Below are positions 20,982 to 50,173 of a stretch of 64,000 bases of DNA, piece by piece. Source of the DNA: Akkermansiaceae bacterium (GTDB taxonomy: Bacteria; Verrucomicrobiota; Verrucomicrobiia; Verrucomicrobiales; Akkermansiaceae); the NCBI GenBank assembly GCA_018402445.1, contig JAGYIT010000017.1:434001-498000 (forward strand), read 5' to 3'. Each line of letters opens with the position of its first letter. Within the stretch, counting starts at the first letter, position 1. The position numbers and the translations under genes were made by a program. Below the pieces are notes generated by a model that was not told the origin of the DNA, did not search any database, and worked only from the letters and a program-made list of their open reading frames with translations.

Positions 20982-21131
20982 TTGGACTGCTACAGCCTGC
21001 TGTAGCTTTCCGCGAGACAGCCTGCTGTCAGCGGCGGAGGACTGGGAGTGGTAGCGCTGCAAGATACCAATGCCGTCCGGCTCGCAGCAGGGCTGCATTG
21101 CCGAAAGCTACAGCAGGCTGTAGCAGTCCAA
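20982..21131. repeat. REPIN family A, copy 1 (upstream of RAYT1)
   Basis: A 150-bp element with perfect 29-bp terminal inverted repeats, beginning TTGGACTGCTACAGCCTGCT and ending with the exact reverse complement at 21103-21131. Internal small palindromes (GACAGCCTGCTGTC and GCAGCAGGGCTGC) are also present. A second copy in direct orientation lies at 21807-21956 on the other side of a RAYT gene. Confidence 0.9.
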
Positions 21132-21136
21132 GGTTC

Positions 21137-21182
21137 CACTCCAAGGTTTTCACTCCAAGGTTTTCACTCCAAGGTTTTCACT
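21137..21182. repeat. Three tandem copies of a 14-bp unit
   Basis: The unit ACTCCAAGGTTTTC is repeated three times without change, followed by a partial fourth. The array lies between REPIN copy 1 and the 3' end of the RAYT gene, whose stop codon falls in the last unit. It looks like replication slippage on the edge of the element. Confidence 0.7.
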
Positions 21183-21786
21183 CGCCGTCTTTGCGGGCGA
21201 TTTCGTCGTATCGGTGGCTGGCGATGGTTTTCACCCAAGCTGGGGATACTTCCTTCGTGAAACGCAGGGCGCTGCACCATTTCCAATCCGAACCCTTAGC
21301 CACCAGTCCGTGATGAACGGCATTCTGATGGACATAATGAAGTCGCGCCAGATAGCTCGCCTGATGGGTGAGATGGGTTTCCCGGAAATTCTGCCAGAGC
21401 CGGGTTCTGCCTGGGACGTTTTCCCTGCGGTTGAGCTCCTTGGTGGTGAGGCTGTGGAGTTTCCTCACCGCCTCGCGGAGTGATTCCGCGCCGTTCGTAT
21501 TCTGAGGAATGTGGGCGACGAAATGATAGTGGTTCGACAGCACCGCCCAAGCCTCCAGCTTCCAACCGTGGTTTGCGGCGATGATAAAAAGTGTTTCCTC
21601 GAACCAATCCTTCATGGCGTCGTCCGCCAGCAAGTGTCGCTCTTCCGCCGCCCTAGCGGTCAGGAAGTAGACCCCCGCCGTGCCCAACCGATGTGGCGGG
21701 GCGTGTGGCCAATCCCTAGTTCCTTTGGCGGTCTGCTCGACATTGGGCAGAAAATCCATGGAGTGGTTATGACGGGGTGGGTGCAT
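21178..21786 (-). CDS. RAYT transposase (REP-associated tyrosine transposase), RAYT1
   Basis: This 202-residue Y1-type HUH transposase has the metal-binding motif SNHYHFVAHIP (about residues 83-93) and the tyrosine region LARLHYVHQNAVHHGLV (about 145-162). It also has LWQNFRETHLT and a C-terminal WKWCSALRF motif. RAYTs are single-copy, domesticated relatives of IS200/IS605 transposases that bind and cut REP hairpins. This one sits exactly between two near-identical REPINs (family A), the usual arrangement for a RAYT and its substrate. Confidence 0.9.
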   Translation of the reverse strand: MHPPRHNHSMDFLPNVEQTAKGTRDWPHAPPHRLGTAGVYFLTARAAEERHLLADDAMKDWFEETLFIIAANHGWKLEAWAVLSNHYHFVAHIPQNTNGAESLREAVRKLHSLTTKELNRRENVPGRTRLWQNFRETHLTHQASYLARLHYVHQNAVHHGLVAKGSDWKWCSALRFTKEVSPAWVKTIASHRYDEIARKDGE

Positions 21787-21806
21787 TTGTCGAGCTTGGA
21801 GATGCC

Positions 21807-21956
21807 TTGGACTGCTACAGCCTGCTGTAGCTTTCCGCGAGACAGCCTGCTGTCAGCGGCGGAGGATCGGGAGTGGTAGCGCTGCAAGATACCAATGCCG
21901 TCCGGCTCGCAGCAGGGCTGCATTGCCGAAAGCTACAGCAGGCTGTAGCAGTCCAA
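21807..21956. repeat. REPIN family A, copy 2 (between RAYT1 and Sua5)
   Basis: The same 150-bp element as 20982-21131, differing at only about two positions (GGACTGGG versus GGATCGGG). It ends about 30 bp before the likely Sua5 start, so it may lie in that gene's promoter or leader. Its hairpin arms are complete. Confidence 0.9.
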
Positions 21957-21988
21957 GTCACAGCCTGCGGCTTGCAATGCGGCGTTCC

Positions 21989-24654: not shown

Positions 24655-25290
24655 TCATCGCCTTGTCGGGGCTTTACTGGGCGGCTTTGCGTATCGCAGG
24701 GTGATGGCTACTTCTTCCGGGTCACGCCGGGAGCTTCCGATTGCTTCGGAAAGCGCCGCCACCGCCCGGTCGGTGGGATAATCGCACTCCAGCGGGAGAT
24801 GGATGAATCCAGCGGGAATGTATATGCCGTTTTCCAAGAGATAATCCATCGCGCGGAAGAAAATCTGGTTGCAGAGGTAGCGGCCGGGGTCGTCGGAAAA
24901 CGCGACGGGGTGGTTGAGGGAAAGGAGGCGGTCGTGGATTTCCGCGAGCGGCAGGGTCGAGGGCAGGGACGGGGGCGCGGCGCGGCGGATCGGGCGCGGA
25001 GCGTATTGCCGTCCGGCGATGTCGGGGATGCGGAAATCAAGTTCGTTCCAGGCGGTGGTCTCCAAACGGATTTCCTGGCTGCCGCCCGCCTCGCCGAGCA
25101 TGAGAAGGGCGTGAGGTTTGATCTTGCGGATCGCCGAGATCAAACGTGAGGGAGCGATCACCGCATCCACCGGCAGGATGCGGGAATGGATGCCGGGAAA
25201 TGATTTCCGCAAACCCGCCAAGGCCAGCGAGGAGGCGTTCTGCTCGCGCCCGCCGAAGGGGCCGAAGGCGGTGACGAGAAGTTTCATCAC
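24655..25290 (-). CDS. pcp: Pyroglutamyl-peptidase I
   Basis: This 211-residue C15-family cysteine peptidase removes N-terminal pyroglutamate. Conserved features are TAFGPFGGREQNASS at the N-terminus, LGEAGGSQEIRLET (catalytic Glu), DDPGRYLCNQIFF (catalytic Cys near residue 145) and AGFIHLPL (catalytic His). The start overlaps the stop of the upstream cytochrome gene by 4 bp. The second Met (MKLLVTAFG) is an equally good start. Confidence 0.9.
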   Translation of the reverse strand: MMKLLVTAFGPFGGREQNASSLALAGLRKSFPGIHSRILPVDAVIAPSRLISAIRKIKPHALLMLGEAGGSQEIRLETTAWNELDFRIPDIAGRQYAPRPIRRAAPPSLPSTLPLAEIHDRLLSLNHPVAFSDDPGRYLCNQIFFRAMDYLLENGIYIPAGFIHLPLECDYPTDRAVAALSEAIGSSRRDPEEVAITLRYAKPPSKAPTRR

Positions 25291-28200
25291 TTCAGGCCCG
25301 AGAGGTATTCCACGAGATCGCGGAGCTGGCGCGGGGTGAGGATGTCTCCCATCGGCGGCATGGTGGAGATGGGGTCGGTGCGGGATTCCACCGCCTCAAG
25401 GTTCAGCACCAGCTCTTTTTTATCTGGCAGGATGAGGGAGAGAAACCGCCCCTTTTCCTCTTTTAGTGCACCGGCGTGCGTGGTGCCGTCCTTCATTTTC
25501 ACGCTCACGATGCCGTAGCCGGGCGTGATCTCCGCCTGGGGATCAATGAGGGATTCCAGGATGTATTCGCGGCCTTTTTTCCCGACCTCCGTGAGAGGCG
25601 GGCCGACCTCACTGCCCTCTTTCTCCACCCGGTGGCAGGCGACGCATTGGGCGGCGAGGTGCTCGTTGAAAACGATCTCGCCGAGTTCCGCATCGCCGCC
25701 GTGGAGGGAGGCGATGTTCGGGTCGAGTTTCATTTTTGCATCAGGGAGGGCTTCGCTGAGCTCGATGAGGAGAAAGGGGTCGGGCTTGGTCAGGATTTTT
25801 TCGAGAGCGGTAGGCTTGAGTTTTCCCAAGAGGCGGACGGCTTCCTGTTTCTCCTGGATGTCATCGGTTCCGGTGAGGGCGGCTTCGGCGTAGGCGATCA
25901 CGGCGGCGGGATCAAACTCGGCGAGAAGAGAGGCGGCGCGGGCGCGGAGCTTCGGGTTGGAGTCTGCTAGAAGTTTGGGGAGCGTGTTGCGGAACACCGG
26001 GCGATCCGCCCTTTCCAAGGCTTCGAGCGCCTGGAGCCGTGATCTGGTTTCGGCCGCGGGATCGAGCGCCTGCTTTTCCATCTCCTTGCGGTCGGCGACG
26101 ATGCCGAGTTTTTTCGAGACGAGAGCCGCCGCCGCCGAGACTTCCGGCTTGCGGTCGCTCTGCAGGGCGACGGCAAAGGGCTGGTAGGCGGCTTTCGCCA
26201 CCTCCTTGTCGGCGGGCTTGAGCGGATCGTGGCGGCCATCGACGGGGTTCAGTTCCGAGGCTTCCGGCCAGGAAGCGAGGGCTTCGAGGGCGGCGATGCG
26301 GAGGGAGGTTTCCGCGAGTTCATCAGCCGCGAATTCAGCTAGGCGGGCGGCGGATTCCGCATCGGCGAGGGTTCGATTCGCAGCGATGGAGCGGCGGGCG
26401 GCGGGGGTCGTGGCCTTCGGGTTTGTGCGGATCAGCTCGGCAAGCGCGGGGTAGGCGGCGGTGATGGCCGGATCGTCGAAGATCGCGTGGGCGGCTTCGG
26501 CGAACACCTTGGGATCCGCGTCGGAGAGCAGTTTCGCGGCGAGCGGTGAGGAAATTCGGCGGAAGGCAACGGCGGCGGCGAGGCGGACGGCAGGGCTTTC
26601 GTGGGTGAGGGTTTTGGCGGCGATTGCCTCGGCGGGCGAGGCGGTCAGGGCGAGGACTCCTGCGTGGCGAAGGTAGGCGTCCTTGTTATCGTTTTCGGCG
26701 AGCATCGTGATCACCGCGTCGATGGCGGTGGCGTCGCCGGTTTTCCCCATCGCGGTGGCGGCCATGAAACGGACGCGCGGGCTTTCGTCGGCGAGCATTT
26801 TGGTGAGAATCGGGTTGGGGCCTTTCATGGTTTCGCCGGCGTGCTTGGCGGCCTGGGCGCGGAGTTCGGGATCGTCGGAGGCGGCGAGGCTGTGGAAGGC
26901 TTTCTCGAAAAACCTGCCGTCCTGGGTGAGCGCCCAGGCCGCGTGGATGCGGGCGAGCTGGCCGGATTTTTCGGAGGCGACGACCTGGTGGAGCTCGGCG
27001 ATGGCTTTTTTCTCCGCTAGCGCCCACTGCGCGTCGAGACGGACGCGCATGTCGGCGTGGGACAGGCGTTTTACTAGATCCGTAGTAGAAATATCCTTGG
27101 TGCCCGCCCTCAGCATCGCGGCGACCTCCTTGCGCAGCTCCGAAGCGGCTTCCTTGGGATCGTCGAGTTTCCAGACCGCGCCTTTTTCATTGAGCGGGTA
27201 GCTACCCGCCCAGTCGGCGGAGTAGAGCGCGCCGTCGGGGCCGAAGTTGATGCCGACGTTCATGGGGCCGCTGTAAACGACGTGTTCGTCTGTCATCTCG
27301 AAGGTCGCGCCTTTGGGTTTGACCTTGAAGGAGCGGAGGTTGCCTTTCGGGAACTCGGTGACGAAAAACGCGTCGGCGTATTTCGCGTTGAGGGCGGTGC
27401 CGGGGTTGTAGGCGAAGCCGGAGGGGCCGTCGGAGTAGTTGCTGCTGGTGGGCGTGATGTAGGCGGGCTGGTGCTTGCCGGAGGGTTCCCAGATGCTCTC
27501 CGCCATCCATGGGTTGTAGGCGGATCCACGGTATTGGTAGTAGTTCCGCCAGCCGGTGTCCGAGCCTTCGGTGATGTGGAGGAAACGCTCGCGCTCGCCC
27601 TTGAAGTCGGCGTCGTTGTCCACAGAGAAAAGGTTGCCGTATTTGTCGAAGGCGATCTCCTGCGGGTTGCGCAGGCCGCGGGCGAAGATCTCGAAGCCGG
27701 AGCCGTCGGGATTGCAGCGCAGCACGGCTCCCTCGTGGGGCGCGTAGTGGTTTTTCCCGTCCTTGTCGGTGACGTTGACGCCTTTGTCGCCGATCGACCA
27801 GTAGAGCTTTCCGTCGGGGCCGGGGATCAGGCCGTGCATGTCGTGGCCGGCGTAGGCGATGTGGACTCCGAAGCCGTGGGCGATGGCCTCGCGCTTGTCG
27901 GCCTTGCCGTCGCCGTCGGTGTCGCGGAGTTTCCAGACATCCGGGGCGATGGTCGCGTAAACATCGCCGCGCCATGCCAGCGTTCCCGCCGCGATGCCGG
28001 TGACCTCGGTGTTGAAGCCCTCGGCGAACACGTTCGAGGTGTCGTAAACCCCGTCGCCGTCCTTGTCGGTGAGGCGGATGATCTTTTCGGAGAGCGCTGT
28101 GAGGTCGCGGATGTCGGTCTTGCCGTCCTTGTTTTGATCCTTCAGCGATGTGCCTTTGAAATCATTCTTCCCGTCGAGCTGCGCCTCGAAAAACGCGCGT

Positions 28201-28469
28201 TTCTCGGCAATCGAAGTCAGAGCCACATCGCGCGGCACCCAGCCGAATTTCACGAACTCGCGGATATCGAGGTCGGCGGTCTTGCGGCGGGCGGTCTCGG
28301 TCACGTAGATCGTGCCGTCCACATCGACCGAGACGGAAACCGGGTTTTTCAGCAACGGCTGCTCGGCGACGAGGGAGCGCTCCAGGCCGTTCGCGGCGGG
28401 GAAGGTTTCGGCGGCAATGGCCGAAACGCTGAGAAGCTGGAACGCTGAAAGGCAGAGTGTTGCGCGCAT
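25287..28469 (-). CDS. PVC-type heme-binding CxxCH / membrane-bound dehydrogenase protein
   Basis: This 1060-residue exported protein has a signal peptide (LCLSAFQLLSVSAIAAE) and an N-terminal beta-propeller dehydrogenase-like domain (about residues 30-430). The propeller holds EF-hand-like loops DKDGDGVYD and DTDGDGKADKRE. Long HEAT-like helical repeats follow (about 450-900), then a C-terminal cytochrome c domain with heme motif CVACH near residue 950 and GPPLTEVGKKG. The order propeller-HEAT-cytochrome is typical of Planctomycetes and Verrucomicrobia. A periplasmic oxidation role is inferred; the substrate is unknown. It is translationally coupled to pcp. Confidence 0.9.
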   Translation of the reverse strand: MRATLCLSAFQLLSVSAIAAETFPAANGLERSLVAEQPLLKNPVSVSVDVDGTIYVTETARRKTADLDIREFVKFGWVPRDVALTSIAEKRAFFEAQLDGKNDFKGTSLKDQNKDGKTDIRDLTALSEKIIRLTDKDGDGVYDTSNVFAEGFNTEVTGIAAGTLAWRGDVYATIAPDVWKLRDTDGDGKADKREAIAHGFGVHIAYAGHDMHGLIPGPDGKLYWSIGDKGVNVTDKDGKNHYAPHEGAVLRCNPDGSGFEIFARGLRNPQEIAFDKYGNLFSVDNDADFKGERERFLHITEGSDTGWRNYYQYRGSAYNPWMAESIWEPSGKHQPAYITPTSSNYSDGPSGFAYNPGTALNAKYADAFFVTEFPKGNLRSFKVKPKGATFEMTDEHVVYSGPMNVGINFGPDGALYSADWAGSYPLNEKGAVWKLDDPKEAASELRKEVAAMLRAGTKDISTTDLVKRLSHADMRVRLDAQWALAEKKAIAELHQVVASEKSGQLARIHAAWALTQDGRFFEKAFHSLAASDDPELRAQAAKHAGETMKGPNPILTKMLADESPRVRFMAATAMGKTGDATAIDAVITMLAENDNKDAYLRHAGVLALTASPAEAIAAKTLTHESPAVRLAAAVAFRRISSPLAAKLLSDADPKVFAEAAHAIFDDPAITAAYPALAELIRTNPKATTPAARRSIAANRTLADAESAARLAEFAADELAETSLRIAALEALASWPEASELNPVDGRHDPLKPADKEVAKAAYQPFAVALQSDRKPEVSAAAALVSKKLGIVADRKEMEKQALDPAAETRSRLQALEALERADRPVFRNTLPKLLADSNPKLRARAASLLAEFDPAAVIAYAEAALTGTDDIQEKQEAVRLLGKLKPTALEKILTKPDPFLLIELSEALPDAKMKLDPNIASLHGGDAELGEIVFNEHLAAQCVACHRVEKEGSEVGPPLTEVGKKGREYILESLIDPQAEITPGYGIVSVKMKDGTTHAGALKEEKGRFLSLILPDKKELVLNLEAVESRTDPISTMPPMGDILTPRQLRDLVEYLSGLK

Positions 28470-28606
28470 GAATTGAGTTCACGCCGGAATCCCGGAAAAG
28501 CAAGCCAACGGCACTTCGTTCTTGAAGCCAAGGTTTCCCTTCTCGGGATCAAAAAAATGAGATTTCCCGCGAGAATCCCCGGCCTTCCGCTGATTAATCT
28601 CGCACG

Positions 28607-29188
28607 GTGACGCTTCCCGGCAAATTTTCACCCATGAGCCCCGCAAATCCAGATGACCGCTCCAGCGCGTTCCTCGGCCAGATCCTGCATTGCCAGCAGG
28701 ACTTGCGGAACTATCTCCATCACCTCCATCCGCACGCGCAGGATCTGGACGACCTCATGCAGGAAACCTGCCTGAAACTCTGGCAGGAGTTCGAAGACTA
28801 CGATTCCACCCGTCCTTTCCTCCCGTGGGCGATGCGCATCGGGTATTTCCAGGTTCTGCGCTTCCGCAAGACCCGCAGCCGCGACCGCCTGGTATTTTCC
28901 GACGAACTTCTGGAGCTGCTTGTCACCGAGACTCCCGCCGACAGCCAGGCCCAAGCCCTGCGCCACGCCCTTGACGAGTGCCTCGGAAAACTCACCCCGC
29001 GGGCGCGCGAGACCCTGCTCGCCCGCTACGCCCAGGATTCCAGCATCGCCGATCTGGCAAAAGGGCGCCGGCAAAGCGTCCACGCTCTTTACCGCTTGCT
29101 CAACCAAGCGCGCACCCAGCTCACCACCTGCATCCGCAGGCAACTGACCCTTGAGGGCGAGTCGCCGAAACCGCACCCATCCCATTGA
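28607..29188 (+). CDS. ECF-like RNA polymerase sigma factor
   Basis: This 193-residue sigma-70-family protein has region 2 (DLDDLMQETCLKLWQEF, about residues 46-62, then PFLPWAMRIGYFQVL) and region 4 (LTPRARETLLARYAQDSSIADLA, about 128-150, then HALYRLLNQAR). It fits the Rhodopirellula/Verrucomicrobium-type ECF group. The start could be GTG at 28607 or ATG at 28634. It overlaps the FecR/LamG gene by 4 bp, so the partner is probably its regulator. The target may be the PEP-CTERM gene downstream. Confidence 0.88.
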   Translation: MTLPGKFSPMSPANPDDRSSAFLGQILHCQQDLRNYLHHLHPHAQDLDDLMQETCLKLWQEFEDYDSTRPFLPWAMRIGYFQVLRFRKTRSRDRLVFSDELLELLVTETPADSQAQALRHALDECLGKLTPRARETLLARYAQDSSIADLAKGRRQSVHALYRLLNQARTQLTTCIRRQLTLEGESPKPHPSH

Positions 29189-30807
29189 TCTCCCGCCCCA
29201 TGTCCGAATTCTCTCCAGCCCGTCTCGACGATCTGCTCGGCCGCTTGGCCGATGGCCTGCTCGTGGAAGCCGAAGCCGCCGAGCTCGACCAAATCCTGCG
29301 GACATCCCCCGAGGCACGCGAGCGCTACCGGGTGTTTTCCGCGACCCACCTCATGCTGGCTTCCGGCCATGTCGAATCCTTGGCGGATCACTCCATCCCG
29401 ATCAAACAGCGCCCGTTTCTGCCCATCGTTAGCGTCGCCGCAGCAGCCATCGCCTTGCTGGCATTCGCAATCGCCCTTTGGCCATCACGCCCCGTCGAGA
29501 GCATCCCGCCCGTCTCCGTCCGAAATGTGCCGGAAACACCCGTTCTCGCCGTCGTGGCTCTTGCCGAAAACGCCCGCTGGGATCTTCCTGAAGCCGCCGC
29601 TGGAGGGATGAAACTGCGCTCCACACCGGTCACACTCAGCTCCGGCATCATCTCGCTCAACCTGATCGGCGGCCAGACCCTCACCCTGCGCGGCCCCGCC
29701 CGTTTCGAACTGATCGACGCGCGGGAAATGAAGCTTTCGGTGGGGGACGCATCCTTCCGCATGGATGACAAGGGCGACCCCTACATCATGCGCGTGCCCG
29801 GCGGCGCGGTCGTCGATCTCGGCACCGAGTTTTCCGTCAATGTCTCGCCGGAGGGCACCTCCGATGTCCATGTCTTCGAGGGGTTGGTCAGCGCCTCCAT
29901 CATCGGCACCGGCGACCGCACCCGCGAGGAACGGCTTCTGAATGAGGGACAATCCGTCCGGATTTCAAAGACCCTCGAAACCAGCCCGGCCGCCCCTTCC
30001 GATTTCCTACGTCCGCTGCCGTCGGAAATGAGCCAGCCATCGCCCGCCGGGAAGGACTATGAGGATGCCGTCATGCGTTCCGCGCCGGCCGCCTGGTGGA
30101 ACTTCGAAGCCGGTGAGGGGGAAACCTCCATCCGTCCCGCCGCCGGGAGCCAAGCCCTGCAACTCCATGGCAACCCGCTGCTCACCGGGTTGGCGGGCAG
30201 GCGCTTCCTTTTCACCAATCCGGTCACCCATGCAGGCTTCGCCCTCACCGATCAGCCGCTTACGGGCCTCGACACCCCCGCCGGAATCACCGTCGAGTGC
30301 CTCCTCTTTCCGCTTTCCGAACGTATGGGGACCGCGCTCGCACTCGACGAACCCGCCCTGGCGCCCCCCGCCACGGGGCCGCTTGCCCACCTGAAACATC
30401 CTCCTACCCGCCTTTCGATTGAGCGCATGGGACTCCGCGGCAAGAATATCGGCCACATGCACCCGGACTATGCCATGAGAGGGATGATGCGCTCGCCCGC
30501 CGGCTACGAAGGCGGCACTAACGCCTATTCTTCCGAAAACCACCTGCTGCACCGCTGGATCCACGTCGTGATTACGCATGACGGCAAAACCCAGCGCCTC
30601 TATATCGATGGCCATCTCTCCGACGAGGTGGATTCGGAGTTCCTGTTCCGGAATGCCGCGCTCCGTCCCATCATCGCCCGCCTGCATCCCCATCCGGAGC
30701 TGCGTAATATCCGCCAGTGGCACGGCGGCATCGATGAAGTGGCGATCTACAACCGCGTCCTGGATCCCGAGGAAATCCGCAGCCATGCGGATGCTCTGGA
30801 TCGCTGA
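29185..30807 (+). CDS. FecR-domain and LamG-like membrane protein
   Basis: This 540-residue protein has a short cytoplasmic anti-sigma-like N-terminus (about residues 1-75), one transmembrane helix (FLPIVSVAAAAIALLAFAIALW, about 78-99), a FecR domain (about 165-275, VPGGAVVDLGTEFSV) and a LamG/concanavalin-like fold (about 300-535, for example WIHVVITHDGKTQRLYIDG). The layout suggests a surface sensor that passes a signal to the sigma factor it overlaps. A second start (MSEFSP) lies 15 bp in. The ligand is unknown; LamG points to glycan or matrix binding. Confidence 0.85.
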   Translation: MISRPMSEFSPARLDDLLGRLADGLLVEAEAAELDQILRTSPEARERYRVFSATHLMLASGHVESLADHSIPIKQRPFLPIVSVAAAAIALLAFAIALWPSRPVESIPPVSVRNVPETPVLAVVALAENARWDLPEAAAGGMKLRSTPVTLSSGIISLNLIGGQTLTLRGPARFELIDAREMKLSVGDASFRMDDKGDPYIMRVPGGAVVDLGTEFSVNVSPEGTSDVHVFEGLVSASIIGTGDRTREERLLNEGQSVRISKTLETSPAAPSDFLRPLPSEMSQPSPAGKDYEDAVMRSAPAAWWNFEAGEGETSIRPAAGSQALQLHGNPLLTGLAGRRFLFTNPVTHAGFALTDQPLTGLDTPAGITVECLLFPLSERMGTALALDEPALAPPATGPLAHLKHPPTRLSIERMGLRGKNIGHMHPDYAMRGMMRSPAGYEGGTNAYSSENHLLHRWIHVVITHDGKTQRLYIDGHLSDEVDSEFLFRNAALRPIIARLHPHPELRNIRQWHGGIDEVAIYNRVLDPEEIRSHADALDR

Positions 30808-30989
30808 GAACGCTCCGATTTCCGGCATTTGGCGCGGCTTTCACCCTGCCGGATCATTATTTTCCGCATCGGAGAAAAAATCCCGCGAAAATCACCCGCC
30901 TCGGGCTGATATCCATGACGTCTTATCAGAGAACACGTCGTCCATGCCTCCAAAACACTCACTACCGGCAAGTGCAACCAACCAGCATC

Positions 30990-33156
30990 ATGAAACCCAC
31001 CAAACTCCTCCGCTCCTTCCTCCTCGCTAGCACCTTATTCGCCGCCGTCTCCACCGCCACCGTCCACGCCCAGACATGGGTAGGCGGCACCAGCGACTGG
31101 GGAACGGCTGGAAACTGGGACCCCTCCGGCGTTCCTGCGACCTCTGGCAATCTAATCTTCACGAGCAACGGCGCTGGCAGCGTCTATTTGGGGACCGCTG
31201 CCCGTACGGTCAGCACCATCACCTTCAACAACACCACAACGGCGACACCTTACACAATCTACCTGAGGGAATCATCGGCGGTCTCCACCTCCCGCAAGCT
31301 TACCGTGGGGAACATGACGGTGGCGGCGGGGAACCACACAATCCTCGGTTCCGGCACCACTGCCGAACTCACCTTTAGCAGTGGTTCCACGATCGCCGTC
31401 GCGGCCGATTCCACCCTCAGTCTCAATGCCAGGCTTAGCGGCTCGGGCTTATTCAAGACCGGCGATGGGACCCTGGCGTTGACTCGCGACAACGGCGGCT
31501 CCGGTTCCTGGAGTGCTGGCACCTTCACGGTTTCTGCAGGGACGCTGGACTTGGCAGCCCACAGAGCCGCTGGCAACTCATCTAACAAGTTTAGCGTTTC
31601 CAGCGGCGCGACCTTGAAACTATCCCATGCCACCGCCTGGAGTGCAACGGCTGGAGACCCTGACCTTGCGTGGCACGGGAGTCGGCGGAGTCGGAGCATT
31701 GCATGCCTCCGCCAACACGACTATCAGCTCCGGCAGCGGCACGGGAATCGTCCTGGCCGCCAACTCTCGCATCGGCGTGGATGCCGATAGGACTCTCACG
31801 CTCACGATGCCCATTAGCGGCGGCTTTGATCTTGAAAAATCCGGGGCAGGTACGCTGGCACTGAATGGTTCCAACACCTACACCGGCGGCACTACCTCTT
31901 CCGGCACCGGCGCGCTGGCCTTGGCCCACAGCAACGCGGCGGGAACCGGCACGATCGAGTTTGCCTCCACCCAGTCCGGCACCAACGCCACCTTCACGCT
32001 CAGCGGCGACATCAATGTCGCCAACGACATCGTCATGGATTCATCGACCGGGCGCAATACCATCAACAGCTTGGTGGGAAACAACACCCTCAGCGGCAAC
32101 ATCACCATCAACAACACCTCATCCAACGCGGTTGCTTTCCAAAATAGAGCCGGAAATGGGACCACCTTCACCATTGGTGGAGCCACACCCGACAGCACCA
32201 CCATCACCGCTGCGGACTACGCAAATACCCTCTCATTTCGCGCAAACACCGGCAACACAACCGCCCTGGGTGTGCTCAACAGCCGGATCGACGCGCCCAA
32301 TGCAACCTTCAATATCAACAACGATGGTTTCTGGACGATCAACTCGACCGCCAACACCTGGGCGGCCACGACCCTGAGTTCCGCCAACAGCCGGATCAGT
32401 CTCGGAGCCAACGATGCCCTGGCCACCGGCGCGTCGGTCCAACTGAACAGCACCAGTTCCGTTGATCTCAACGGTTACAACCAGACAGTCGCGGGTTTGA
32501 TCGGCACCAGCACCAGCGCGCAAATCAAGAACGACTCCACCACCGCCGACTCCACCCTCACCCTCGCCGGGCTCACCGCCGACCGGAGCTTTAGCGGTGT
32601 CATCACCGACGGCAGTGGCGGCAGAACAACCTCGCTGGTGATGGACAGCAGCGGCCGCACCCAGACGCTCTCCGGCACGAATACCTACACCGGCACCACC
32701 ACCGTCTCCGCCGGCACCCTTCTGGTCAATGGCTCGCTTGCCTCCGGCAGCGCCGTCACCGTCGAAACCAACGGCACCCTCGGCGGCACCGGCGCGCTGG
32801 TTAACAGCCTTTCGTTCGCAGGAGATTCATTCCTCGAAGTTGTGAATCTCAGTGATGCGCTCGCCGTCACCGGGACCATCACTTTCGGCAGCGGCTTCGG
32901 CATCGCCAACCTGCTTGGCATAAATTGGGACGATCTGAATTTCGACACGCCTTACACCGTGCTTTCCACCAGCCAGACCTTCGGGGAAACGGACATCGCC
33001 AACTTCGGCTTCGACAACCGGGTGGCAGTCGGTTCGCTCGGACGCGAGGCCTACTTCACCAACGGCAGCCTTGCCGTCATCGTCATCCCCGAACCCTCCG
33101 CCGCCCTCCTCGGTGGTCTCGGCCTGCTCGGCCTGCTCCTCCGCCGCCGAAATTGA
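30990..33156 (+). pseudogene. PEP-CTERM autotransporter-repeat protein, one frameshift
   Basis: From the ATG at 30990 the gene encodes a signal peptide (LLRSFLLASTLFAAVSTATVHAQ), then autotransporter-associated beta-strand repeats (WVGGTSDWGTAGNWD, NTYTGGTT, NTYTGTTTVSAGTLLVNG). It ends with a PEP-CTERM sorting tail, VIPEPSAALLGGLGLLGLLL followed by RRRN. The frame changes between about 31640 and 31665; downstream coding resumes as ETLTLRGTGVGG. Together the parts give about 720 residues. The PEP-CTERM tail marks it for exosortase processing at the outer surface. It lies 180 bp after the sigma/FecR pair and may be their target. The frameshift may be an assembly error. Confidence 0.8.
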
Positions 33157-33202
33157 TTCTTTAGGTGTCTCCTTCAAATAGCTCCCCGTAAATAGTAAAT
33201 AG

Positions 33203-33235
33203 GGTCAGTCCTCGCATTTTAACATTTTCCTTGGT
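33203..33235 (+). repeat. Inverted repeat flanking RAYT2, left copy
   Basis: AGGGTCAGTCCTCGCATTTT followed by AACATTTTCC. The reverse complement, with a 2-bp insertion, occurs at the right end of the RAYT gene (about 34250-34285). The sequence also resembles the right end of family B elements (10.7 and 46.6 kb) and 56771-56795. Confidence 0.8.
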
Positions 33236-33264
33236 ATTCCCTTCCGGGTTGGGTAGAAGAGTTG

Positions 33265-34278
33265 ATGGCTAGGCCGTTACGATTCCAATATGCGGGTGCC
33301 TGCTACCACGTCATGGCACGCGGCGATGGAGGGAAGACGATTTTCGAGGACGACGAGGACAGGAAGGTTTTCATCGCGCGGCTGGGGGAGGTTTGCGGGC
33401 GTTGCGGGTGGAAGGTTCATGCGTGGGTGCTGATGGGCAACCATTTCCACCTGCTGCTGGAGACTCCGGAAGCGAATCTCGTGGATGGAATGAAGTGGCT
33501 GCTCGGGACGTTTTCCCAGGGATGGAACCGGGTGAGGCGGCGGCGCGGGCATGTTTTCCAAGGGCGATACAAATCGGTGCCGGTGAACGGGGAGGAGACG
33601 GGTGCGTATTATTTCCGGATCGTGGCGGATTACATCCACCTCAATCCCGCGCGGGCCGGTCTTGCGGGAGGGGAGCGCGGGAAGCTGGCGGATTACCGGT
33701 GGAGCAGCCTGGGAGCGTATGCGAAGGGCGTGGGGCCGGATTGGCTGGTGATGGAGCGGGTGTTGCGGGCGTTCGAACTGGCGGAGGACGGGCGCGGGCG
33801 GCGGGCGTATGTGGCGTGGCTGGAGGCGAGGGCAAGGGAAGACGGTGGCAAGATCAACGATGAGGCGCAGGCCGCGTTGCGGCGGGGCTGGTATCTGGGG
33901 GAAGAGAGTTTCAAGAACAAGCTGCTGGCGATGCTGGATCGGGTGCGGGGCGGCAGGAATCCGCGCAACACAACGGGTGGAGCCAAGAAGGATCACGGGG
34001 AAGCCGAGGCCGGGAGGTTGGTTCGGAAAGCGGAAAAGGTCTTGGAATTGCCGACGGGAAGACGGTCGATGGAGGGATTGCGGAAGGGAGATGAGAGAAA
34101 AGTTCTGCTCGCCGCCCTGCTAAGACGGAGGACATCGGTGGGATTGGGGTGGATATCGGAAAAACTGGTGATGGGGCATCCGGGCTCGGTGAGTCGTCTG
34201 GTGGGAGGGATAGCGAAGAATCCTGAGCTGGCGCAGAGGTTGGAGGAATTGGAAAATATGTTAAAATGCGAGGACTGA
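33265..34278 (+). CDS. RAYT-type Y1 transposase, RAYT2
   Basis: The ATG at 33265 gives 337 residues. N-terminal ARPLRFQYAGACYHVMARGD, HUH motif GNHFHLLLETP (about residues 57-67), FQGRYKSVPV and the tyrosine region YIHLNPARAGLA (about 121-132) define the Y1/RAYT core. A long C-terminal extension (about 180-337) carries a helix-turn-helix-like part, as in the larger RAYT subgroup. It is flanked by inverted copies of an approximately 30-bp sequence; the right copy encodes the last residues (NMLKCED). Confidence 0.9.
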   Translation: MARPLRFQYAGACYHVMARGDGGKTIFEDDEDRKVFIARLGEVCGRCGWKVHAWVLMGNHFHLLLETPEANLVDGMKWLLGTFSQGWNRVRRRRGHVFQGRYKSVPVNGEETGAYYFRIVADYIHLNPARAGLAGGERGKLADYRWSSLGAYAKGVGPDWLVMERVLRAFELAEDGRGRRAYVAWLEARAREDGGKINDEAQAALRRGWYLGEESFKNKLLAMLDRVRGGRNPRNTTGGAKKDHGEAEAGRLVRKAEKVLELPTGRRSMEGLRKGDERKVLLAALLRRRTSVGLGWISEKLVMGHPGSVSRLVGGIAKNPELAQRLEELENMLKCED

Positions 34279-34285
34279 CCCTATT
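34250..34285 (-). repeat. Inverted repeat flanking RAYT2, right copy
   Basis: GGAAAATATGTTAAAATGCG then AGGACTGACCCTATTT is the inverted counterpart of 33203-33235. It overlaps the RAYT2 stop codon, so the gene and its repeat form one compact unit. Confidence 0.8.
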
Positions 34286-34318
34286 TCCTATGAACCGGCT
34301 CTACTTCATTCTTGAAGA

Positions 34319-34429
34319 GTTAACCGCGAATGGACGCGAATGAAGAAAAATAAGAATTACAAAAGGTGAGAACGCTAGGCGGCACCTGTATGGAAATCAC
34401 CCTTATCATTCGCGAAAATTCGCGTCCAC
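34319..34429. repeat. Family E inverted-repeat element, copy 2
   Basis: GTTAACCGCGAATGGACGCG begins the left arm (34319-34345) and CATTCGCGAAAATTCGCGTC the right arm (34408-34429); both share TGGACGCGAAT in inverted orientation. The left arm matches 24304-24337. This is the main content of the 240 bp between RAYT2 and the SGNH hydrolase gene. Confidence 0.6.
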
Positions 34430-34519
34430 TTGTCCGTCGTAGCCTTCCCGGCCTTCGTAGCTTCAGCGAAGTAGGCGGCGAAGTCGGATTCGCGGTTGAA
34501 TCTGAATTACGGGAGCCGG

Positions 34520-35245
34520 TCACTCTATCTTCACGCCGATGGCCTTGCCCATTTCCGTGGCGACGAAGGCGTTGCCGGCCGGGTTCAGGTGGACGCCGTC
34601 GCCGGTGAGGATGCCTTTGGGATTGTTATCGGGGTTGTTGGCTTTGAGGTGGTCGATGAAAGCCTTGCGGAGATCGACGAGTTGGCTGTTGGTATCGGAG
34701 GCGACCTTGCGGCTGATCGCGGAATATTCTTCAAGCATGGCGTCGCGCTCGTTGCTGCCGTCGTGTTTCTCACCGATGACGGAAGGGGTGCAGAGGATCA
34801 CGCGAGCGCCGACGGCGTTGATCTTGGCGATGATGTCCTTGAGTCCCTCCTCGAAGATTTCCTTGGTGGTGCCACCGCCGAGGAGTTTGCCTTCCTTGTC
34901 CATTTTCCAGTGCCAGACGTCGTTGATGCCGATGTAGATGAAAACGAGGGTCGGCTTCTTGGTGATCACGTCCTTTTCGAGGCGCGCCTGGAGGTTCGGC
35001 ACCTTGTTGCCGCTGATGCCCGCGCCGAAGGTCTCGACGCCGAGGTCGGGGTTCGCGGCCTTGATGGCTGCGGTGAGCACCGTGACGTAGCCCTGCGGTT
35101 TCACACCGGCCTGGGTGATGGAGTCCCCGAGGAACACGATGCGGGCGGCTTTTTTCAGGGGTTGGGGGGCTTCCTCGGCATAAAGGGCGGAGGGTATGGA
35201 GAGGATGGCGGCGAGTGTGGCGATGGCGATGGCGCGGATTTTCAT
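34520..35245 (-). CDS. Exported SGNH/GDSL hydrolase
   Basis: From the ATG at 35245 this is a 241-residue protein; the track ORF adds 60 non-conserved residues. It has a signal peptide (MKIRAIAIATLAAILSIPSALYAEE), block I with the nucleophile Ser (RIVFLGDSITQAG), block III (YIGINDVWHWK) and block V with the Asp-His pair (GDGVHLNPAGNAF). SGNH hydrolases remove acyl or acetyl groups, often from polysaccharides. It is likely periplasmic; the substrate is unknown. Confidence 0.88.
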   Translation of the reverse strand: MKIRAIAIATLAAILSIPSALYAEEAPQPLKKAARIVFLGDSITQAGVKPQGYVTVLTAAIKAANPDLGVETFGAGISGNKVPNLQARLEKDVITKKPTLVFIYIGINDVWHWKMDKEGKLLGGGTTKEIFEEGLKDIIAKINAVGARVILCTPSVIGEKHDGSNERDAMLEEYSAISRKVASDTNSQLVDLRKAFIDHLKANNPDNNPKGILTGDGVHLNPAGNAFVATEMGKAIGVKIE

Positions 35246-35289
35246 GGTGTTGGTGAAACATCTAGCAGCCGCAATAGACACGCGCCAGC

Positions 35290-35336
35290 GGGTATTTTCG
35301 GGGAGCGCACGCGCCCCGCGTGCTGTTTCCGATACC
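35290..35336. repeat. Long imperfect hairpin, REP-like or terminator
   Basis: GGGTATTTTCGG...GCACGCG then CCC then CGCGTGC...CCGATACCC folds into a stem with a perfect 7-bp top (GCACGCG/CGCGTGC) and a matching base (GGGTAT, TCGG). It lies in the 192-bp gap between the ABC ATPase and the SGNH gene. No T tract follows on either strand. Confidence 0.5.
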
Positions 35337-35437
35337 CTCGCCGGAAACTCGGCTCGAGATAGGGCAGGCTTTTTTCTTGTTTGGCGGCGCACATCATCTT
35401 TCCAACCGACGGACCGCGAGGGCACGTATGCTCCCCC

Positions 35438-48686: not shown

Positions 48687-49066
48687 CGCACCAACACAGC
48701 TTTCCCGTCCGCTTTGTCAAGATATTTTTTCACACGTGTCGGCGACTGAGCAAAAGTGGATTTAATTATCTGAGCAAAAGTGGACAGTCATTCCTGATAT
48801 TCAAGATTGCTTGATGGGCGTTGCGGATCAAAGGCGGTATTCAGCGAGGATGTCCGGCCATTGAGGTGATTGAGGCGTGGGCGGGTGGGCGATGACCCGG
48901 AAGCTCCCCGGTTGCTGGACGATGGTAACCTGCTTGCTTTCTGCGGGCGTGATCTCCCAGCGGCGACCCAGGAAGCTGATCTCTCCGGCTTTCTGACATC
49001 TATTTCCCAGAAAAACAGTAAGACTTTTCTTTTGCTATGGGGAGTTTTGCGGGTAGGATCGGGGGA
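48687..49066. other. 380-bp gap with transposase remnant and duplicated end sequence
   Basis: CTGAGCAAAAGTGGA occurs twice, at 48746-48760 and 48770-48784, in direct orientation 9 bp apart, looking like repeated insertion-sequence ends. A decayed transposase C-terminus (48828-48995, minus strand) follows. The remainder up to the RAYT3 start shows no gene. Confidence 0.5.
48828..48995 (-). pseudogene. Decayed transposase C-terminal fragment
   Basis: On the minus strand the DNA encodes GEISFLGRRWEITPAES and then, after a shift of frame, VTIVQQPGSFRVIAHPPTPQ...WPDILAEYRL with a TGA at 48828. The two parts look like the end of an integrase-type transposase. The 5' end is cut off before about 49000, near the RAYT3 leader. 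Family assignment is from memory of similar C-termini and is only moderately sure. Confidence 0.4.
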
Positions 49067-50173
49067 ATGAGCAGTAAGCGATTCCTGAGTCCTTGGAAAA
49101 ATTCGTTGGAGAAGCCGGTGATTTATCACTGCGTTTCGCGGGTGGTGGATCGGCGGTTTGTGTTGAAGGAGGAGGAGAGGGAGAAGTTCCGCATGTTCAT
49201 GCGGATGGTTGAGAATTTCAGCGGTTGCCGGGTTCTTTCCTACTGCCTGATGTCCAACCACTTCCACATTCTCCTCGAAGTGCCGCCCGCGCCTGCCGAG
49301 GGCGTTTCCGATGGGGAAATCCTGCGGCGCTTGGGGGCGATTTACAGCGAGGCGGCGGTGGCCGCGATCGCCCGTGAAATGGAGGATGCTAGGGCGGAGG
49401 GAGCGGAGGATTTGCTGAGGGAAATCCGTCTGCGCCACACGCGGCGCATGCACGACCTCAGCGAGTTCATGAAAGCTCTGCTGATCCGTTTCACCCGTTG
49501 GTTTAACCGCACGCACCAGCGCACCGGAACCTTGTGGGAAGATCGCTTCAAGAGCGTGATTGTGGAAAGCGGTTTGGCGGCGCGAACTATGGCGGCATAC
49601 ATCGACCTGAATCCGGTCCGTGCGGGGATGGTGGAAGACCCGGCGGAGTATCGCTGGAGCAGCTATGGCGAGGCGGTGGGAGGGGGGAAAAAGGGAAATG
49701 GGAAGAAGGCGCGGGAAGGATTGGTGCGGGCGAACCGATGCGACAAAGGGGTGGGATTTGATGCCACGCAATGGCTGGAAGTGGCGAAGAGTTACCGGAT
49801 TCTATTGGGAATGGCGGTGGCGAGGAAGCGCGGGAAGGCGAAGCTGGAAGAGGTGATGGGGAAAGGGAAAGCCCCTGGGAAAGCAGCGGAGATGCGGAAC
49901 ATGAACATGGAGGAAATCATCGAGCATCTAGAGAAAACAGGCCAGACGATAGGCCTGCCCGACCTGACTGCGGCGAAGATATTGAGGATGCGGGTGAGGT
50001 ATTTTACGGACGGAGCAGTGATCGGCAGCAAGGAGTTCGTGAACGAGGCGTTTGCGGGAGCGCGGGAAAGGTTTTCCAAGAGGAGGAAGGACGGGGCGCG
50101 ACGGATGCGCGGCAGCGGCGCGGCGGCGAAGGGTTTGCTATGGAGTATTCGGGATCTGCGGGTGGGGGTGTGA
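49067..50173 (+). CDS. RAYT-type Y1 transposase, RAYT3
   Basis: The ATG at 49067, with GGGGGA directly upstream, gives 368 residues. Features: NSLEKPVIYHCVSRVVDRRF, HUH motif SNHFHILLEVP (about residues 63-73), LWEDRFKSVIV and the tyrosine region YIDLNPVRAGMV (about 177-188). It has a long insertion between these motifs and a basic C-terminal extension. This matches the larger RAYT group seen in Verrucomicrobia. It is clearly different from RAYT1 and RAYT2. No matching repeat pair is evident around it. Confidence 0.88.
   Translation: MSSKRFLSPWKNSLEKPVIYHCVSRVVDRRFVLKEEEREKFRMFMRMVENFSGCRVLSYCLMSNHFHILLEVPPAPAEGVSDGEILRRLGAIYSEAAVAAIAREMEDARAEGAEDLLREIRLRHTRRMHDLSEFMKALLIRFTRWFNRTHQRTGTLWEDRFKSVIVESGLAARTMAAYIDLNPVRAGMVEDPAEYRWSSYGEAVGGGKKGNGKKAREGLVRANRCDKGVGFDATQWLEVAKSYRILLGMAVARKRGKAKLEEVMGKGKAPGKAAEMRNMNMEEIIEHLEKTGQTIGLPDLTAAKILRMRVRYFTDGAVIGSKEFVNEAFAGARERFSKRRKDGARRMRGSGAAAKGLLWSIRDLRVGV

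Follow-up and report, generated by a model that had tools for sequence, protein, structure and literature searches.

The gene RAYT2 lies in a 64,000-nucleotide window of the genome of an Akkermansiaceae bacterium. Its coding sequence is intact, with a further in-frame TTG at 33262, upstream of the ATG, and it is enclosed by two inverted sequences, the TIRs or arms (Table 1). The left arm on the forward strand and the reverse complement of the right arm are identical at 29 of 29 nt. When the arms are extended to 33185-33228 and 34255-34298, they remain 89% complementary over 44 nt. The best inverted local alignment between the two flanks of the gene scored 66; in 60 shuffles the score never exceeded 26. 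A preliminary description of the locus had placed a sequence of approximately 30 bp before the gene and its reverse complement over the last codons and the stop. This was confirmed, and the TGA stop codon (34276-34278) is itself part of the right-arm core.

Table 1. Features of the RAYT2 locus (coordinates of the window) and related elements elsewhere in the genome (contig and position).
Feature	Position	Strand	Remarks
Left TIR	33197..33225	+	AAATAGGGTCAGTCCTCGCATTTTAACAT; perfect 29-nt inverted pair with 34258-34286
Left TIR core	33201-33208	+	AGGGTCAG; lineage-specific tail after the core
Promoter-like TTGGTA - 17 nt - TAGAAG	33231..33259	+	between left TIR and ATG; read from the sequence
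RAYT2 (TIRYT) coding sequence	33265..34278	+	337 aa, intact; ATG start, TGA stop 34276-34278
HUH motif N59-H60-F61-H62	33439..33450	+	in homologue alignment, H60 invariant, N59 and H62 nearly so
Catalytic tyrosine motif Y123-I-H-L-N-P	33631..33648	+	Y123, H125, L126 and P128 invariant in homologue alignment
C-terminal domain, residues 243-337	33991..34275	+	DnaA-domain-IV-like fold; putative dsDNA-binding part
Right TIR	34258..34286	-	inverted copy of left TIR; covers last 6 codons and stop (CTGACCC)
TIRYT	C5:703 kb		TIR GGGGTCAGTGTGCAAATATTGACAAAA
TIRYT	C17:337 kb		TIR GGGGTCAGGTTCCTCATCGCAACATTT, two tandem left arms
TIRYT	C10:130 kb		TIR GGGGTCAGGTGCTTCATCGCAACATTT
Truncated TIRYT copy	C4:350.8 kb		
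Solo TIR arm	C4:182.5 kb		
Internally deleted TIRYT remnant	C17:194.6 kb		

The RAYT2 protein matches the Pfam family Y1_Tnp (9.7e-8) and the NCBIfam model REP_Tyr_transpos (3.6e-17, under that model's cut-off), and carries the motifs NHFH, FQGRYK and YIHLNP. Its AlphaFold model has a pLDDT of 87. With this model, the best Foldseek match was TnpA-REP (4er8, E=1.2e-7), followed by IS200/IS605 transposases. The C-terminal domain has no Pfam match at the sequence level. The last 95 residues, modelled alone with AF2, gave a pLDDT of 91, and the top five PDB matches of this model were all DnaA domain IV, from several bacteria, with probabilities of 0.97-0.99 and TM scores by query length of 0.62-0.67, but with E values of 0.2-0.5. 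The C-terminus is thus predicted to fold like DnaA domain IV, and it would be a putative binder of double-stranded DNA.

Homologues and their flanks were collected from GTDB genomes, with one genome per species, many of them fragmented. A homologue (E<=1e-30) was found in 138 of 388 sampled Verrucomicrobiota genomes. Of the full-length homologues for which both flanks were available, 116 were non-redundant; 104 of these 116 had significant inverted ends, and GGGTC was found in both arms at 89 of the 104 loci. Two controls were run. When the upstream flank of one locus was compared with the downstream flank of another, the same score was reached in 9 of 300 trials, and 4 of 32 neighbouring ORFs also scored at least 34 in the inverted-end test. 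The consensus of 96 anchored pairs reads (AAA)GGGGTCAG-N-CC and then passes into an AT-rich tail that varies around ATTT..A.CATT. Within it the GGGTCA core is nearly invariant, GGGGTCAG being the core of most homologues and AGGGTCAG that of RAYT2, whose arm is near the phylum consensus. The layout is conserved as well: the core starts 51-70 nt upstream of the ATG in 90 of the 96 homologues, a TGA stop falls within the right core in 49, and extra tandem arms are present at 23.

Conservation of the core is accompanied by divergence of the tail from locus to locus. Within a locus the tails of the left and right arms were 87% identical, versus 41% across loci, and the more distant two proteins were, the more distant were their tails (Mantel r=0.51, p=0.001, a test that leaves kinship in, so that shared ancestry could be a partial cause of the co-divergence). 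The earlier proposal that these ends belong to RAYT2 is thereby supported by comparison: homologues keep inverted ends specific to their locus, and end and protein diverge together. A windowed correlation between protein and TIR distances, along the protein, gave weak signals only for a specificity region, and its top window (residues 321-340) is trivial, since the end of the gene and the right TIR share sequence there. The tails were also considered as DnaA boxes and rejected as such, 20 of 96 having at most 2 mismatches against 18.9 in shuffles.

Outside the phylum, four annotated plasmid homologues were examined. The distant ones of Legionella adelaidensis and Rhodospirillum rubrum have clear GGGTCAG ends, the one of Sporomusa has a weaker inverted pair, and the one of Skermanella has no such ends. 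Three contigs (G265:C25, locus L198; G230:C1; G197:C1) each carry several TIRYT genes in head-to-tail order, only a few kb apart, which suggests that whole units were amplified in tandem.

Across the assembly (3.53 Mb, 17 contigs, 88% complete), the RAYT2 end AAATAGGGTCAGTCCTCGCATTTTAACAT was found in 2 copies only, allowing up to 3 mismatches, and both are at RAYT2. Since this TIR has no other genomic copy, RAYT2 may be inactive. Including RAYT2, the genome has 4 intact TIRYTs, each with its own TIR, as well as degenerate copies (Table 1).

Two further genes were noted in the window. One, at 49037-50173, encodes a Y1 protein with the motif YIDLNP and a length of about 368 aa, one of at least 12 similar paralogues in the genome, which share a strongly conserved C-terminus ending in RDLRVGV; no flanking inverted ends were found at the window copy. 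The other, at about 20982-21960, is a RAYT-type gene (193 aa) with long palindromic repeats (TTGGACTGCTACAGCC...) in inverted orientation on its two sides, and forms a REPtron-like unit separate from RAYT2.

RAYT2 lies inside a lineage-specific segment of about 6.0 kb (window 28506-34519) that is missing in three congeners, G005, G017 and G015, where the orthologues of the genes at 25287-28469 and 34520-35425 directly adjoin. The relatives compared lack the entire 28.5-34.5 kb segment and gave no empty site for RAYT2. In another genome (G032:C33, locus L114) a solo TIR, GGGGTCAGTCCGCGCATCGCGACA, stands immediately 3' of the orthologue of the 34520-35425 gene, the same intergenic place as that of RAYT2 in the window.

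It had been proposed that sequences similar to the RAYT2 end terminate the 10.7- and 46.6-kb elements of a repeat family (family B) and occur at 56.77 kb, and that RAYT2 may have mobilised family B in trans. With the RAYT2 locus masked, the best matches to its end elsewhere in the window scored 24 (46.3 kb), 22 (10.4 kb) and 21 (56.4-56.8 kb). The best match in each of 20 Markov-shuffled windows scored 22.9 on average and at most 27, which places the similarity within chance. TIR-like sequences of other types do occur at family-B flanks. At 10.44 kb, on the left of the 10.4-kb element, there are 26 of the 27 bases of GGGGTCAGGTGTCGCATTTCAACA, a TIR carried by TIRYTs of congeners. On the right of the 10.7- and 46.6-kb elements there is a match, at 18 of 19 positions but with the core missing, to the TIR tail of a RAYT2 homologue that is 76% identical (L033).

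Family B itself is an element of about 136 nt with terminal repeats of its own, CTTTTGAGTGCG, and 48 matches in the genome, most of which, among those inspected, have no TIR-like flank. A RAYT of 178 aa dedicated to this family was found at C4:56552-57085, with 2 tandem family-B copies on one side and 9 on the other, and its orthologue in G008 is 90% identical. All 11 tandem copies of this region (C4:54000-58500) have one orientation. Family B very probably has its cognate REPtron in this RAYT unit. Since family B has its own RAYT amid tandem copies, it would belong to another enzyme. The idea that RAYT2 recognises its ends and also moved family B draws on copies at three places, 10.4, 46.4 and C17:338 kb, that adjoin TIR-like sequence, one of them directly beside another TIRYT (L023). 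This adjacency would then be due to chance. Faced with chance-level matches to the RAYT2 end, flanking TIRs of other types, unflanked copies and a dedicated RAYT, we consider the idea extremely improbable, and RAYT2 was rejected as the mobiliser of family B.

Dispersal of RAYT2-type ends was seen in other genomes. In a scan of 41 congeners with up to 3 mismatches, in which the reversed-pattern control gave 0 throughout, the RAYT2-type TIR had 28 copies in G018, 64 copies in G019 and 22 copies in G029, most of them in a form that differs from the RAYT2 end by 2 bases. A TIRYT with that end is present in both G018 and G019. G029 has no TIRYT at E<=1e-30 despite its 22 copies. Overall, copies were more numerous in congeners with a TIRYT than in those without (Mann-Whitney p=0.007). 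This amplification in TIRYT-bearing congeners makes action in trans plausible for enzymes of the RAYT2 type, with TIR pairs as a candidate cargo.

The copies in G018 are mostly paired, at a constant spacing of 69 nt. In all 8 pairs fetched (L311-L319), the TIRs are inverted with their cores outward, around interiors of 44-46 nt, and the arms are near-identical and complementary. The interiors are mostly unrelated across loci (mean alignment score 13.8 versus 11.7 for shuffled sequences), with the exception of one pair of loci sharing 36 of 45 interior bases. It could be that TIRs were set at a fixed distance, 44-46 nt, around pre-existing host DNA. This would explain the unrelated interiors, the identical arms and the constant spacing, and, if true, the pairs would record a measured two-strand insertion by a HUH enzyme rather than the copies of one mini-element. 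The 36 matching bases in one pair of loci speak against this reading, which we regard as unlikely. In G019 (L325-L330) the same TIR is found in the opposite layout, cores facing, inside larger repeated surroundings, in a BIME-like fashion.

The G018 pairs are inverted doublets of fixed spacing that could form a long hairpin, as REPINs are, with hairpin-less TIRs in the place of REPs. In Pseudomonas fluorescens SBW25, GI doublets are spaced at 71 bp, and their spacers are only weakly conserved (PMC3116915), close to the 69 nt and poorly conserved interiors of G018. RAYT2 might therefore be seen as a canonical RAYT with flanking REPs, a REPtron, whose ends are recognised as folded single-strand hairpins: the superfamily of the protein and the inverted flanking layout are the same, and the best Foldseek match is the REP-bound TnpA-REP 4er8. 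However, single arms fold no better than shuffles (mean z -0.01 for 96 arms), and the excess of complementary bases across the 96 arms is at most about 8% for any column pair, which is no meaningful base-pair covariation. Both tests were negative for a REP-type hairpin in the TIR arm. The RAYT2 arm also lacks the GT[AG]G foot, having neither GTAG nor GTGG. Thus neither a hairpin with a foot nor many dispersed repeats accompany RAYT2, whose end has 2 copies, and TnpA-Y1 subclass 2.1, with which its motifs and C-terminal domain agree (see below), was described without REPs (PMC6006769). We judge the REPtron reading very unlikely.

The space between left arm and start codon appears to hold a promoter. 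Upstream of homologues, TTGAC at -37 to -34 occurs 0.51 times per locus, compared with 0.06 in shuffles, and there is a preference for T at -12, A at -11 and T at -7 (a T..A...T pattern). A Shine-Dalgarno-like motif was seen in 1 of 91 homologues. From this spacing and the near-absence of a Shine-Dalgarno-like motif, a leaderless message is predicted: the promoter would follow the left arm directly on its inner side, and the transcript would begin at the ATG or beside it.

This arrangement brings up autoregulation: the inverted ends would be an operator pair and not substrates, the helix-turn-helix of the protein repressing its own promoter and the right arm acting as a terminator or second operator. 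The promoter-like -35 that adjoins the left arm in many homologues, the predicted DnaA-IV-like double-strand-binding domain, and the fact that the RAYT2 ends occur nowhere but at the gene all fit such a scheme. It leaves unexplained the invariant catalytic HUH and tyrosine residues, as well as the tandem extra arms, the solo arms, the truncated copies and the 22 to 64 dispersed copies in congeners. As the sole function of the ends, autoregulation seems improbable to us. The TIRs may, though, combine an autoregulatory role with that of substrate.

RAYT2 is a TIRtron, or TIRYT, and not a REP-RAYT pair. It belongs to a kind already known, since TIRtrons and TIRYTs were named by Di Nocera in 2013, with the motif GGGGWSAS common to some TIRs but not all, arms overlapping the 3' end of the gene, and TIR dimers and clusters (PMC3733652), and were tentatively equated by Quentin in 2018 with TnpA-Y1 subclass 2.1 (PMC6006769). 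As in TIRtrons, the inverted repeats on either side of a RAYT-like Y1 gene have no relation to GTAG REPs, the arms are at a fixed distance and overlap the 3' end of the gene, and TIR dimers or clusters are found in some genomes. The core AGGGTCAG agrees with 7 of the 8 positions of GGGGWSAS, with one mismatch.

Subclass 2.1 is described as having NH[YF]H, FQ or W[EQ], and Y[IV]HLNP, a Bac_DnaA_C- or HTH-like C-terminus, and no nearby REP (PMC6006769). RAYT2 has all three motifs, a long protein, no REP, and a DnaA-like C-terminus that is found in the structural model (DnaA domain IV, E 0.2-0.5) and not by Pfam. With RAYT/TnpA-REP (Nunvar 2010; Bertels and Rainey 2011) it shares the Y1 domain and the inverted flanking repeats, but it is longer, has the DnaA-IV-like C-terminus, and its arm has neither hairpin nor GTAG foot. 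With IS200/IS605 it shares the HUH/Y1 catalytic domain. It differs from these elements by Y---NP in place of Y---Q, by inverted arms in place of subterminal hairpins, by its single copy where theirs are several and near-identical, and in that no adjacent tnpB was seen.

RAYT2 and its two 29-nt ends are probably a complete single-copy TIRtron working as follows. The C-terminal DnaA-IV-like domain would recognise the lineage-specific TIR tail in duplex DNA and so locate the element. At the invariant GGGTCA core, the HUH domain would then nick one strand and rejoin it, on single-stranded DNA such as that at a replication fork. TIR pairs or single TIRs elsewhere could then be moved in trans, as apparently happened in some congeners. 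We infer the binding, the division of labour between the domains, the cleavage site, the single-strand mechanism and the mobility; the anatomy of the unit, its conservation, the co-divergence of end and protein, the absence of a hairpin, the predicted folds and the amplification of TIRs in congeners were observed.

What this analysis adds is the match of tail to locus throughout the phylum, the embedded stop codon, the placement of the promoter, a structural model in favour of a DnaA-like domain, and the TIR pairs of fixed spacing. For these we found no precedent in a search of the open-access literature, and GGGGTCAG turned up in unrelated sequences only.

TIRYTs are common yet hardly studied, and their name is rare in the open-access literature. 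The phylum sample amounts to approximately 100 natural pairs of enzyme and end, in which the core is invariant and the tail variable. It therefore becomes testable how a HUH enzyme that has no hairpin to go by chooses its ends, and whether reading of the tail falls to the DnaA-like domain. Each TIRYT keeps a private version of its end, and in some related species such ends have spread genome-wide. The TIR pairs of congeners suggest that a REPIN-like spread is possible without a REP hairpin in each arm.
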